Shown here: positions 5,535-10,361 of the stretch, piece by piece
How positions within the stretch are numbered: position 1 is the stretch's first letter
Layout of the letters: the number at the start of each line of letters is the position of its first letter
Source: Ignavibacteria bacterium
GTDB lineage: Bacteria; Bacteroidota; Ignavibacteria; Tepidaquicellales; Tepidaquicellaceae
DNA length: 64,000 nt
Reading direction: 5' to 3'
Assembly (NCBI GenBank): GCA_036262055.1
Contig: DATAJP010000002.1
Location: 888,177-952,176 of the forward strand
Notes under the pieces: model-generated
What the model was told of the DNA's origin: nothing
Seen by the model: the letters and a program-made list of their open reading frames with translations, nothing else
The model's database searches: none
Position numbers and translations under genes: made by a program

Positions 5535-6440
5535 ATGAAGAAGAAATACATCTTATTTTTCGCAATTTTATTTTTTGGGGTTTCCCCGCTTAAAGCAGAA
5601 TTGTATAATGTCGGAGTTTTCAGCAATTTTTTTCTTCCCTCAACTTTGTTCAATGTTAATGTGGGCGATACTGTCAGATGGACATTGATGGAAGGATTTC
5701 ATACCACGACTTCGGTAACTGTTCCATCCGGTGCTGCAACATGGGACCATATGTTTCTGGGGAGCGTGGGTGAAACATTCGATTATATTGTTACAGAGGA
5801 GGGTACCTATGACTATACCTGTATTTTTCACGGAGGTATGGATGCTTCATTCGAGGTAATCCTGCCTGTGGAAATTTCAACTTTCAGCGCGTCCGTATTT
5901 GAAAATAAAATCAAGCTCTTATGGACAACAGTAATGGAGTTTAATAATCTGGGCTTTGACATCGAAAGAAAAATTGCATCAACAAACCAATGGTTAAAAG
6001 TTGGGTTTGTTAAAGGTAACGGCACAAGCAATAAATCATATCAATACAGTTTCATTGATGAGAGTGTTTCTCCCGGAAGGTATAATTACCGGCTGAAGCA
6101 GTTAGATTACAACGGCAACTATGAGTATTTTAATTTAACGGGGGAAATTTCAATCGGTGTTCCCGATAAATATTTTTTATCTCAGAACTATCCAAACCCG
6201 TTTAATCCCGTAACAAGAATCGATTATCAGCTTCCATATGACGGGTATGTTAGTTTGAAAATATACGACATAGCGGGACGTGAAGCGGCAACCCTCATAA
6301 ATGGAAATCAGACAGCAGGCATTTATACGCTAACTTTTAATGCTGAAGTAATATCAAGCGGAATTTATTTTTACCGTCTTGTTGCCGAGAATAACGGGGA
6401 AAGATTTATCGAAACAAAAAGAATGACAGTCTTAAAATAA
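5535..6440 (+). CDS. Secreted plastocyanin-like (cupredoxin) protein with T9SS sorting domain
   Basis: 301 residues. Residues 1-21 form a signal peptide. A cupredoxin domain (about 22-112) carries the type 1 copper ligands: His56 (context EGFHTT), Cys96, His99 and Met102 (TCIFHGGM). A fibronectin-like linker follows at about 115-205. The C-terminus (about 215-301) is a type IX secretion sorting domain, with NYPNPFNP, SGIYFYR and a KRMTVLK end. The protein should be exported through the outer membrane and act as a small electron-transfer or copper-binding surface protein. It converges on the NirK-like operon and shares a terminator with it. The location next to nitrogen-oxide genes is suggestive, but a direct link is not shown. 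Confidence 0.88.
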   Translation: MKKKYILFFAILFFGVSPLKAELYNVGVFSNFFLPSTLFNVNVGDTVRWTLMEGFHTTTSVTVPSGAATWDHMFLGSVGETFDYIVTEEGTYDYTCIFHGGMDASFEVILPVEISTFSASVFENKIKLLWTTVMEFNNLGFDIERKIASTNQWLKVGFVKGNGTSNKSYQYSFIDESVSPGRYNYRLKQLDYNGNYEYFNLTGEISIGVPDKYFLSQNYPNPFNPVTRIDYQLPYDGYVSLKIYDIAGREAATLINGNQTAGIYTLTFNAEVISSGIYFYRLVAENNGERFIETKRMTVLK

Positions 6441-6519: not shown

Positions 6520-8088
6520 TTATGTTGAGCTTGGCGAAACAACTATATTCTTTTTTATTGAATTTATTTTATAAAGCGCATATATAATTAACAAAATTGT
6601 CAGTATAACAAGCACAAAAATCCACATATTTCCCTTTGTTCCTGCCGTTTCATTGCCATTAACAACCGTAACTACACCCTTCATATATGGATGAGGTGCG
6701 CATAAATATTTATAGGTACCGGCTTTGTCAAGCTTTACTTTAAAAGTTTCAGCATGTCCGAGCAAAGGAGAGCTGAACGGTTCCGGCGCATCATATGTTG
6801 ATGCGGTATGAATGCCTGAAAATTCTCCTTCCATATAAGTGAAAACTTCTTCATTCTGCCATGTGACAGTTGTACCCTGATGGACTTTGATTGATTTGGG
6901 ATAGAAACTGTTTCCTATTATTTTTATCATAACTTCTTTCACTTCCGGTCCGTATTCAACGACGGGGTCAACATCAGGCGTTCCCGGTTCAAACGGCGCA
7001 ATGGTTCTTATGATTTTTGATTTTATATCTTTTAATTCTTTTTCTTCATATTGCGGTCCGTCTGCAGTTATGGTTACAGGAGTGACCGCGTTTCTGTCGC
7101 ATATCAATAATCCGATAGCACCTCTGTCTGCAGCGCTCACCGCATGGTCAAGCATTGTATAAGTTCCTTCATCAGGAGGCATTCTGAATTCTATAACCCA
7201 TGAATCAGATGGTCCTGAAGTTACAGTCTGACCGCCGGGCTGAGGTAGGTCAGGATTTCCCTGCCAATAAACAAAGTCCCACATAATACCGACAATATGA
7301 AAAGTAGAAACTTTGTTTGGTCCTACATTCAGATAATTTATTCTTACATAATCTCCGGGTTTTGCTTTTATCGGTTGTTCGATATATTTGAACAGTTTTC
7401 CATTCCACATAGTGTATATAGGGTTTCCGTCAATTGCATCTTTACCGCTTGAATACATTTCATGCTGAAGTATGTATAATTCTACATCAGGTTTTTTATT
7501 CAGCATTTGCTCAAGCTTATACTGTTTCTTTGGTTTAACCGTCATCATTCCATATTGCCCGAATAATATGTGAAGCGGAATTCCATGTCCTCCGGGAGCG
7601 CAGTGATACATATATACACCCGGGCGTGATGCTTTAAACAACATGGATTTTGTTTCACCTGCGTTTATCTTTCCGAGATATTTTGAAGTCTGGGTAGATG
7701 CTGAGTGAATCGATGCACCGTGAGGAATTTGTCCTTTATTAACAACCGTGAACTCAACAATATCACCTTCATTTACTATTATGTTTGGTCCGGGAATACT
7801 TCCGTTTATTACAAAACCTTTGAAAAGCACTCCTGCGCCTATATAAGTGTCGCCTTCGGATAATTCAATTGTAACCGATGCATCCGGTTTTATACCGGCA
7901 TTCTGCGGCACATAGCTCGACGGCGGAATGGACAGACTATTATCCCTGTTCATTATTTCTATGAACTGAGTTGTGTCCTTGCTTTCTGCGAATAAAGAAA
8001 GATTAACCTGAACCGGTAACAACACCATCGCAATAAATAACATTCGCAACATTTGATAGGATTTCATTTTATTTATATTAAATTCCAT
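6520..8088 (-). CDS. NirK-like two-domain multicopper protein fused to a cupredoxin and C-terminal anchor
   Basis: 522 residues: signal peptide (to about residue 36), two NirK-type cupredoxin domains (about 70-335), a third cupredoxin (about 385-475) and a membrane helix (488-506). Against copper nitrite reductase the type 2 copper ligands are all present (His128, His162, His315), as is the catalytic histidine (His264, FHIVG). Type 1 ligands His123, Cys163 and His173 are present. Two key positions differ: the catalytic Asp is Ser126 (HGASIH where HNVDFH is usual) and the axial Met is Gln178 (HILFGQ). The C-terminal cupredoxin has its own ligand set (His427, Cys463, His466, Met469). The likely role is nitrite reduction to NO at the periplasmic face, or a related oxidase, with a built-in electron relay. 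It is the last gene of the operon starting with the RIC gene. The exact start is uncertain (Met1 or Met8). Confidence 0.8.
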   Translation of the reverse strand: MEFNINKMKSYQMLRMLFIAMVLLPVQVNLSLFAESKDTTQFIEIMNRDNSLSIPPSSYVPQNAGIKPDASVTIELSEGDTYIGAGVLFKGFVINGSIPGPNIIVNEGDIVEFTVVNKGQIPHGASIHSASTQTSKYLGKINAGETKSMLFKASRPGVYMYHCAPGGHGIPLHILFGQYGMMTVKPKKQYKLEQMLNKKPDVELYILQHEMYSSGKDAIDGNPIYTMWNGKLFKYIEQPIKAKPGDYVRINYLNVGPNKVSTFHIVGIMWDFVYWQGNPDLPQPGGQTVTSGPSDSWVIEFRMPPDEGTYTMLDHAVSAADRGAIGLLICDRNAVTPVTITADGPQYEEKELKDIKSKIIRTIAPFEPGTPDVDPVVEYGPEVKEVMIKIIGNSFYPKSIKVHQGTTVTWQNEEVFTYMEGEFSGIHTASTYDAPEPFSSPLLGHAETFKVKLDKAGTYKYLCAPHPYMKGVVTVVNGNETAGTKGNMWIFVLVILTILLIIYALYKINSIKKNIVVSPSST

Positions 8089-8100
8089 TGAAAAATTATT

Positions 8101-8445
8101 TTAACTTATTAAACTAACTACAAAAAAACCAAGCGGAGAAGAAAATTTTATTATAGTAAATATACTTATTGAGTTATCGTCCGAATCATTTTCAACAATT
8201 TCTTCTTTGCTGTTTTCTTTTTCAGGTGTATCAATACTATACTTCACAGGAGATGAAACAAGCTGATTTGAACCGGATTGATTTTCTATGGCTTTCAATA
8301 GTTCCTGAGCTCCTAATGTATTAGCTCTTTCTTTAAGCAATTCACTTCTGAAATCTTCATTACACTTAGGGCAGGCAAATATTTCGGTATTTGCTATTGT
8401 CAGCAGAGTTATAATCGAAATACAAAATGCAAATATTCTTTTCAT
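8101..8445 (-). CDS. Small envelope protein with CxxC, unknown function
   Basis: 114 residues. A signal peptide (about 1-24) is followed directly by CPKC (residues 25-28), a charged helical stretch (about 30-60), a low-complexity acidic linker and a hydrophobic C-terminus (about 95-114). The CxxC at the mature N-terminus could bind a metal or be redox-active; it is not a heme motif because no His follows. I do not recognise a family. It lies 12 bases upstream of the NirK-like gene and 12 bases downstream of another small membrane protein, so a shared job in that operon is likely. Confidence 0.6.
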   Translation of the reverse strand: MKRIFAFCISIITLLTIANTEIFACPKCNEDFRSELLKERANTLGAQELLKAIENQSGSNQLVSSPVKYSIDTPEKENSKEEIVENDSDDNSISIFTIIKFSSPLGFFVVSLIS

Positions 8446-8457
8446 GATAATTTTAAT

Positions 8458-8811
8458 TTAAAATATTAATAAAAGTAGTATAACAGAAAATATTATCAGC
8501 GCCGATATCAGAATAAATCTGATTCTGAGCAATTCTGTGCTTAATGCAGGCATATAAACTGTGTTACCTGCGAAAATATTGACAGGGCTTATTTCGGCTT
8601 GCAATGTTGTTCCTCCCGAAAGAGATGGTTCTTTCGATGAGCCGAATATTAAAACAGCGAATATTATTAAGAACAAAACAAAAACACCTGCCATCATCCA
8701 CTTAGTATAAACTTTCATATCCATACCTTGGGAAATAGTCTCGGTCTGCGCAGATAAATTCTCTGCTATAAAAATTGAAGCGATTAAAATAAATTTAATA
8801 AAAGTTTTCAT
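8458..8811 (-). CDS. Small membrane protein of the nitrite reductase operon, unknown function
   Basis: 117 residues. A signal-like N-terminus (1-21, ending LSAQ) is followed by a membrane helix (about 37-55), a periplasmic or cytoplasmic loop of about 40 residues and a last membrane helix (about 95-117). No family is recognised. It is the second gene of the operon, 13 bases after the RIC gene. Its size and topology would suit an assembly factor or an electron-transfer scaffold, but there is no motif to prove it. Confidence 0.6.
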   Translation of the reverse strand: MKTFIKFILIASIFIAENLSAQTETISQGMDMKVYTKWMMAGVFVLFLIIFAVLIFGSSKEPSLSGGTTLQAEISPVNIFAGNTVYMPALSTELLRIRFILISALIIFSVILLLLIF

Positions 8812-8824
8812 AATAAATTCATCT

Positions 8825-9580
8825 TTATAAATTACACATGCAGGCGGAACCTTCTGAACTGCACGCAGAATTAAAAATTTTTTCTTCTAATTCTTTAGCT
8901 TTCGGAAATAGAATGTTATTTTCAAGATGTATATGTTTATGCAGGTCATTGTTTAATTCTTCAAGCTCATTATAGGTTATTCTGTGTGTGTTGCAAAAAG
9001 AATCTTCTATCAAAAAATCATTTGTTAGGTTTCTGATTGTTTCCAAAAAATTTCCCGCTTCTGCATGCTCTCTTTCCATAACTGAAATAGGATTATCAAT
9101 AGACCCGAATGGCGGCGTATTGAGCGTAGAATTGTCCCTGCCGGCATTAACTAAAGTTTTTATGTAAGGGAAAAGGATATTCTCCTCTTTAAGCATATGT
9201 TCTTCAAGCTCATTTTGAAGCTTTTCATATTCCGAATTGATTTCAATAAGTTCCGGATATTTAACTGAATGTTTTTCAGAAAGAGTTTTAAGATGCCCTT
9301 TAATTCTTGGCAAGACTTTTCTCAGGTATGTATGATGGGCATTAACAATGTAATCAGCAAGGAAGTCCAATTCCCAGTCATTAAAGACATCGTTATTGAA
9401 TGAATAATTTTTTAAGTCATTCAGTAATGAATCTAAATTAATGTTTTTATTAGCGCATGCCTCAGAAAGACTTTTTTTCCCGCCGCAGCAGAAATCAATG
9501 CCTAATTTTTCGAATAATTCGGTTGTTTTGTAATTAAATTTAATTACATCTGAAACTTTGGTTTGTGTGTTTATTTCCAT
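8825..9580 (-). CDS. ric: Di-iron iron-sulfur cluster repair protein (RIC/ScdA/YtfE family)
   Basis: 251 residues. Residues 1-60 are the ScdA_N (DUF542) domain with the FCCGG motif at 30-34. Residues about 75-235 form two hemerythrin-like helical hairpins with several conserved His and Glu (AHHTYL, EEHMLKEENILFPYI, REHAEAG, HLENNILFPKA) that hold a di-iron site. The family restores iron-sulfur clusters damaged by nitric oxide or oxidants and releases iron or NO. The last dozen residues add a Cys-rich tail (CSSEGSACMC). It is the first gene of a four-gene operon ending in the NirK-like gene, consistent with defence against NO made by that enzyme. Confidence 0.92.
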   Translation of the reverse strand: MEINTQTKVSDVIKFNYKTTELFEKLGIDFCCGGKKSLSEACANKNINLDSLLNDLKNYSFNNDVFNDWELDFLADYIVNAHHTYLRKVLPRIKGHLKTLSEKHSVKYPELIEINSEYEKLQNELEEHMLKEENILFPYIKTLVNAGRDNSTLNTPPFGSIDNPISVMEREHAEAGNFLETIRNLTNDFLIEDSFCNTHRITYNELEELNNDLHKHIHLENNILFPKAKELEEKIFNSACSSEGSACMCNL

Positions 9581-9668: not shown

Positions 9669-10361
9669 TTATTCGGAAAGGTTTTTCAGCTTTGAAATAT
9701 CTTTGATGAAGATATCTTTACCGGAAACTTCAATAATACCATCGTTTTGAAGTCTTTTTAAGGTGCGAGAAATGGTTTCCTGAACTGTTCCGAGATATGC
9801 AGCAAGGTCATAACGTGTTATATCGAGCTTGATTGTAGCAGTATTTTGATTTGATTTTTCAATTTCTGAAAGCAAAAATTCTGCAAGACGCTTGGAAACA
9901 TCTTTTAAAGTAATATTTCCTAACATCATATTAAGATGAACATTCTTAAGCGACAGAACCGAAATCATTTTAAGACAAAGATTGATGTCGGATTTAATGA
10001 AATTAATATATTCTTTTGCGGGAATAAATAAAAGCTCCGTGTCATCTTCCAAAGAAGCAGAATTTGCAGGATAACTCAGATTGGAATCCGGTGAGTTAAT
10101 GTTTTTAAACATAGGTACTTCGGCAAAAGTCCCGAAAGGTTCAAAAATATTTATTATCTGTTCTTTTCCTTCGGGAGATACTTTAAATACCTTTACGAGC
10201 CCGGATAAAACGGCATAAAAACCTTTGTAAGGTTCAGATTCAAAAAAAATTATATCGTTTTTATTAAATTTCTTTATTGAGCAAAACTTGTAAATAGATT
10301 TAAGTTCCTCATCATTAAGTTCCGAGAAGTGCGTTATTTTTCTTAATATATTTAAGTTCAT
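9669..10361 (-). CDS. Crp/Fnr family transcriptional regulator
   Basis: 230 residues. The N-terminal cyclic-nucleotide-binding-like beta-roll (about 10-120) carries FFESEPYKGFYAVLSGLVKVFK and PFGTFAEVP segments. A dimerisation helix follows, then a winged helix-turn-helix (about 165-220, DLAAYLGTVQETISRTLKRL) with the E..SR recognition pattern that reads TTGAT-type half sites. It lacks the N-terminal cysteines of oxygen-sensing Fnr, which fits the Dnr/NnrR type that responds to NO via heme. It is 88 bases upstream of ric on the same strand. From context it probably controls the RIC/NirK-like operon. Confidence 0.85.
   Translation of the reverse strand: MNLNILRKITHFSELNDEELKSIYKFCSIKKFNKNDIIFFESEPYKGFYAVLSGLVKVFKVSPEGKEQIINIFEPFGTFAEVPMFKNINSPDSNLSYPANSASLEDDTELLFIPAKEYINFIKSDINLCLKMISVLSLKNVHLNMMLGNITLKDVSKRLAEFLLSEIEKSNQNTATIKLDITRYDLAAYLGTVQETISRTLKRLQNDGIIEVSGKDIFIKDISKLKNLSE

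Follow-up and report, generated by a model that had tools for sequence, protein, structure and literature searches.

The nirK gene of the Ignavibacteria bacterium is located on the minus strand at positions 6520-8088 of the window, that is, the whole stretch of 64,000 nucleotides that was analysed, and encodes a protein of 522 amino acids (aa) in which a signal peptide is followed by a two-domain NirK core, a third cupredoxin and a C-terminal transmembrane (TM) helix; the coordinates of all these parts refer to the minus strand. The N-terminal signal peptide, covering residues 1 to about 36 (7981-8088), is predicted from the sequence and shows low pLDDT values at residues 1-10 and 24-36. Domains I and II of the core span residues 66-333 (7090-7893) and harbour the sensing loop H123-G-A-S126-I-H128 (7705-7722), in which Ser126 (codon 7711-7713) occupies the Asp_CAT position, the bridge formed by the type 2 ligand His162 and the type 1 ligand Cys163 (7600-7605), and the motif H173-ILFG-Q178 (7555-7572), which provides the type 1 ligand His173 and, five residues further on, the axial Gln178. 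According to the alignment, the type 2 copper is ligated by His128, His162 and, as third ligand, His315 (7144-7146); His264 (7297-7299) corresponds to His_CAT and Val266 to Val_CAT, and Gln287 and Thr288 are present as well. The third cupredoxin extends over residues 385-476 (6661-6936) with the ligands H427, C463, H466 and M469, and is matched by Pfam Copper-bind at residues 394-475 (E 7.6e-16), in addition to a match of Cu-oxidase_3 at residues 90-188. A TM helix with a basic tail is predicted at residues 487-514 (6547-6630), where hydropathy reaches 2.75 over 19 residues, and the predicted structure of the whole protein attains a pLDDT of 87 and a pTM of 0.79. Both hallmarks of canonical NirK, Asp_CAT and the axial Met, are missing and replaced by Ser126 and Gln178, and the score of 141.1 bits against the canonical NirK equivalog TIGR02376 lies below the curated cut-off of 296.3. 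No further NirK copy was found in the genome, the sole match being a weak cupredoxin at C2:626018.

The gene belongs to an operon-like arrangement in the order RIC, two-TM protein, CxxC protein and NirK, all encoded on the minus strand and separated by gaps of 12-13 bases. Directly upstream of nirK, positions 8101-8445 encode a separate CxxC(N)-module protein of 114 aa (A/CPKCNEDF..., the slash marking the likely cleavage site; CxxC at 8362-8373). It is preceded by the gene of a small two-TM protein of 117 aa (8458-8811), for which no family match was obtained and the position of which, ahead of the CxxC gene, is conserved in loci L003, L004 and L118; a similar small two-TM gene is found downstream of nirK in L005 and L006. 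The first gene of the group (8825-9580) encodes a RIC, i.e. a di-iron iron-sulfur cluster repair protein of the ScdA-YtfE type (TIGR03652, E 8e-65, above the cut-off), and 88 bases upstream of it, on the same strand, lies the gene of a CRP/FNR-family regulator (9669-10361). Among the Ser-type nirK loci, that of the window counted, RIC is a neighbour in 7 and a CRP/FNR regulator is near in 17. A scan of the window for FNR boxes returned fewer matches than expected by chance and none near the nirK operon, and no promoter was recognised by eye in front of either RIC or the regulator gene. On the plus strand, the window opens with the 3' part of nrfA (1-602), encoding the ammonifying nitrite reductase, while nrfH and the rest of nrfA are situated just left of the window; nrfHA is thus about 6 kb away from the nirK operon.

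Among proteins of known structure, the best match of the window NirK is PDB entry 6hbe, the NirK of Thermus scotoductus SA-01 (TsNirK; PMC6400189), with an E-value of 2.6e-118 over 412 residues and 43% identity, and the alignment runs without a gap across both sites, from the Ser to the Gln. Likewise, the profile comparison gives 6hbe an E-value of 3.5e-190, the next match following at 1.1e-67, and the predicted model superimposes on 6hbe with Z 45.4 over 407 residues at an rmsd of 2.0, the next entry reaching Z 30.7; in this model, the spatial arrangement of the three domains is the same as in TsNirK. The crystallised enzyme features the sensing loop His75-Gly-Leu-Ser78-Ile-His80, the axial ligand Gln130 and a C-terminal cupredoxin, the copper of which and the first type 1 copper are 14.1 A apart (PMC6400189). 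Hence, both proteins share Ser_CAT within an HGxSxH loop, the axial Gln, Val_CAT, the C-terminal cupredoxin and all ligands. The first-pass annotation had proposed Ser126 as the replacement of the catalytic Asp and Gln178 as the type 1 axial ligand, and both assignments are confirmed by the alignment, their counterparts in 6hbe, Ser78 and Gln130, being visible in the crystal structure. An insertion shift around residues 164-180, named there as what would overturn the reading, does not occur in the gap-free stretch; the type 2 histidines and the catalytic His264 align as claimed, the third cupredoxin is complete and recognised by Pfam, and the C-terminal membrane helix holds as a prediction. 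The comparison of the Gln ligand with stellacyanin was apt too, as the same comparison is made for TsNirK (PMC6400189). The combination of Ser, Gln and a third cupredoxin is therefore a trait set that was already described for TsNirK in 2019.

To place this protein in a wider context, a family scan with one genome per species yielded 80 loci, and 296 genomes of the phylum revealed four further full-length Ser-type members and 18 classical NirKs. Throughout the 81 family members aligned, the Ser, Val_CAT, His_CAT, Gln287, the third domain and all copper ligands except the axial one are invariant, while the axial position is taken by Gln in 71 and by Met in 10 members, the latter group consisting chiefly of archaea and Armatimonadota, plus Crenothrix and one Myxococcota. 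On the contrary, the classical NirKs, comprising the 18 of the same phylum and that of Geobacillus, invariably possess Asp (19/19) and, with one exception, Met (18/19). Because Ser is thus found in 81 of 81 family members and Asp in 19 of 19 classical enzymes, the window NirK does not represent a chance variant or a degraded copy. In a maximum-likelihood tree of 102 rows, the Ser-type NirKs form one clade of 83 rows with a support of 100/100, which includes TsNirK and the window protein and spans many phyla, archaea included, with the Asp-type enzymes standing apart. Of the Ser/Gln pair, the conservation of which had been raised in the first-pass annotation, Ser is accordingly conserved and Gln is not a fixed trait; since Ser is invariant while Gln and Met alternate, Ser_CAT and the Gln axial ligand are not locked together within the Ser clade. 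Hence, the Ser/Gln site, so far known from one crystallised protein, comprises a Ser that is now a fixed trait of a clade of more than 80 sequences, and the alternation of Gln and Met under an invariant Ser offers natural pairs for separating the roles of Ser_CAT and the axial ligand. As an aside, an axial Gln has also emerged outside the Ser clade, namely in L095, an Asp-type NirK of the same phylum. Of the 79 members tested, 54, archaea among them, have a predicted C-terminal TM helix, so that the window NirK is not alone in carrying the anchor; the helix is missing in Thermus (crystallised chain), in Spirochaetes and in one group of Verrucomicrobia.

With respect to other known systems, the classical two-domain NirKs of Geobacillus (3wkq) and Achromobacter (2bw4) have the two-domain core with type 1 and type 2 sites in common with the window NirK, but they differ from it by Asp_CAT, an axial Met and the lack of a third domain. 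An extra electron-transfer domain is likewise present in the enzymes of Hyphomicrobium (2dv6, N-terminal cupredoxin) and Ralstonia (3ziy, C-terminal haem c), though it is located at the other end or binds haem and, unlike that of TsNirK, is not packed on its own core. Pold et al. 2024 (PMC10999283) place Thermus in their NirK clade 5, whose genomes often contain nrf, as does that of the window; clade 5 is defined by phylogeny, and the likeness noted here concerns Thermus and nrf only. There are also differences from TsNirK itself: the crystallised chain of 451 residues ends soon past the third cupredoxin and lacks the C-terminal TM helix of the window NirK, and TsNirK has no CxxC module, whereas the window NirK has a separate CxxC gene next door, so the in vivo partners of the window NirK may differ. 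Moreover, the Thermus cluster also holds nirS, which was not found in the window genome.

Nitrite reduction, the copper sites and the acceptance of electrons from a cupredoxin have been demonstrated in this homologue: TsNirK reduces nitrite with a kcat of 65 s-1 and a Km of 27 uM nitrite, receives electrons from pseudoazurin, and displays EPR features typical of type 1 and type 2 copper, its copper sites having been probed by Raman spectroscopy as well (PMC6400189). Since an enzyme with the same traits reduces nitrite and the window protein belongs to the same clade, it is best interpreted as a nitrite reductase and not as a new enzyme class. By analogy to TsNirK, it is very probably a TsNirK-type copper nitrite reductase with Ser_CAT and three domains, which is encoded near NrfHA and would be exported, held at the membrane and furnished with a CxxC partner. 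Of the two functions envisaged in the first-pass annotation, a nitrite reductase with different kinetics thus gains support from the activity of TsNirK, while a hydroxylamine- or NO-linked oxidase found no positive support.

The latter possibility, in its broader form an enzyme of another kind built on the NirK fold, be it such an oxidase or another multicopper oxidase, deserves consideration, as the NirK of Nitrososphaera viennensis both reduces nitrite and oxidises hydroxylamine to NO (PMC6308003), no NOR was found in the genome, and the Nitrosopumilus multicopper oxidase 9cck, which resembles the window NirK in joining two cupredoxin domains to a C-terminal cupredoxin, is its third Foldseek match. 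However, 9cck is 22% identical and matches well over only two domains (Z 28.4 as compared with 45.4 for 6hbe), its third domain being placed differently (rmsd 10.5 over the whole), while nitrite reduction is proven for the closest relative, which shares the Ser and the Gln, and the three type 2 histidines and His_CAT are intact in the window protein, which renders this alternative improbable. A loss of catalysis through the exchange of Asp for Ser, leaving a copper protein for electron transfer or NO sensing, might be suggested by the slow Asp98 mutants of classical NirKs discussed in PMC6400189, though TsNirK achieves its turnover with Ser and is faster than the AxNir variants D98A/E/N (PMC6400189), and none of Ser, His_CAT, Val_CAT and Gln287 varies among 81 sequences from many phyla; this reading is highly improbable. 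Finally, Cys163 and His173 are separated by a longer loop than in GtNirK, which could have led to a classical Asp/Met enzyme being misread through misalignment, but the equivalents of both residues in 6hbe are crystallographically Ser and Gln, and the gap-free alignment to that entry rules such a misreading out.

The nitrite reductase may be assumed to work as follows. After export, the C-terminal helix would anchor the enzyme in the inner membrane, and a periplasmic carrier would deliver electrons to the outer type 1 copper of the third cupredoxin, from where they would proceed to the Gln-ligated type 1 copper of domain I and, via the Cys163-His162 bridge, to the type 2 copper. There, nitrite would be reduced to NO, with Ser126 and His264 presumably taking over from Asp98 in positioning the water that donates the proton. 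The RIC encoded in the nirK operon could help to cope with the NO, and the upstream CxxC protein may act as a dedicated partner of NirK.

The CxxC module is of wider occurrence within the family, since most Ser-type members, 56 by count (after removal of the false match L066 and addition of L052, which the filter had missed), carry an N-terminal extension that begins at a likely signal peptidase site with A/CxxC(N) and continues for about 35 residues; the protein upstream of the window nirK contains the same module as the N-terminus of these fused relatives. In the window as well as in L003, L004 and L118, the module constitutes a gene of its own of about 110 codons just upstream of nirK, and both the CxxC protein and the NirK of these loci possess their own signal peptides. 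These four form a clade (100/100) nested within the fused members of the tree and, because of this position, fission of a fused gene would be the simpler reading for the separate gene. Among the 296 genomes of the phylum, the module occurs in exactly five, the same five that encode a Ser-type NirK (Fisher p 5e-11, kinship ignored). In the predicted structure of the fused relative L006, it folds with moderate confidence into two helices, of which the first (residues 35-47) opens with the CxxC and the second covers residues 53-66. Searches of Pfam, PHROGs, the PDB and plasmids returned nothing convincing, i.e. no family or structure match, and no description of the module together with NirK was found in the open-access literature.

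The module therefore has no known fold or family, which, together with its loss in L040 and L043 and its absence from Thermus, Spirochaetes and archaea, could be taken to indicate a hitch-hiking leader or spacer that is no functional partner of NirK. This is unlikely, given that both Cys are invariant and Asn, Phe and Gln nearly so in 30 aligned copies, that four related genomes have retained the module as a gene of its own after fission, and that it co-occurs exactly with Ser-type NirK. There is about an even chance that the two-helix A/CxxC(N) module serves Ser-type NirK as a dedicated, hitherto undescribed partner in maturation or redox reactions, e.g. as a thiol switch or by donating Cu(I), and that it is fused in most members from Bacteroidota, Balneolota, Verrucomicrobiota and Myxococcota and was split into its own gene in the Ignavibacteria lineage of the window. 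Its most likely role would be in periplasmic copper loading or thiol redox, and the module thus points to a candidate partner for this type of enzyme.

Regarding the remaining nitrogen genes, the following absences refer to a genome that is about 95% complete. Neither NirS nor Hcp was found; NosZ searches gave only cupredoxin-like fragments far under the cut-off, and those for Nar/Nap only two weak pieces within one 569-aa frame. NOR was likewise not found, the two haem-copper oxidases being, judged by sequence, an aa3 type with SCO/COX3 and a CcoNO-type (cbb3) fusion with a haem c motif. As no NOR or nitrate reductase was found, the organism is no classical denitrifier. NirK beside NrfHA would rather act as a nitrite sink and NO source in its host, and with nrfHA accompanying this NirK and no NOR found, the organism stands out as an ammonifier from which NO may be released.

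Some observations on neighbouring genes may be added. In Spirochaetes (L064, L068 and L072), a small cupredoxin of about 195 aa that resembles a lipoprotein is encoded ahead of the Ser-type nirK, and in Bacteroidales (L016-L021 and L032) the Ser-type nirK is found among genes for cytochrome c oxidase, SCO and a CxxC-containing protein with a heavy-metal-associated domain. In the window, the product of the gene convergent to nirK (5535-6440, plus strand) is a secreted protein that combines a type IX secretion tail with a cupredoxin resembling amicyanin (H and C-I-F-H-G-G-M motif, TIGR02657 matched weakly), and positions 29115-63944 are occupied by a long surface-polysaccharide and sugar-nucleotide gene cluster, all on the minus strand.
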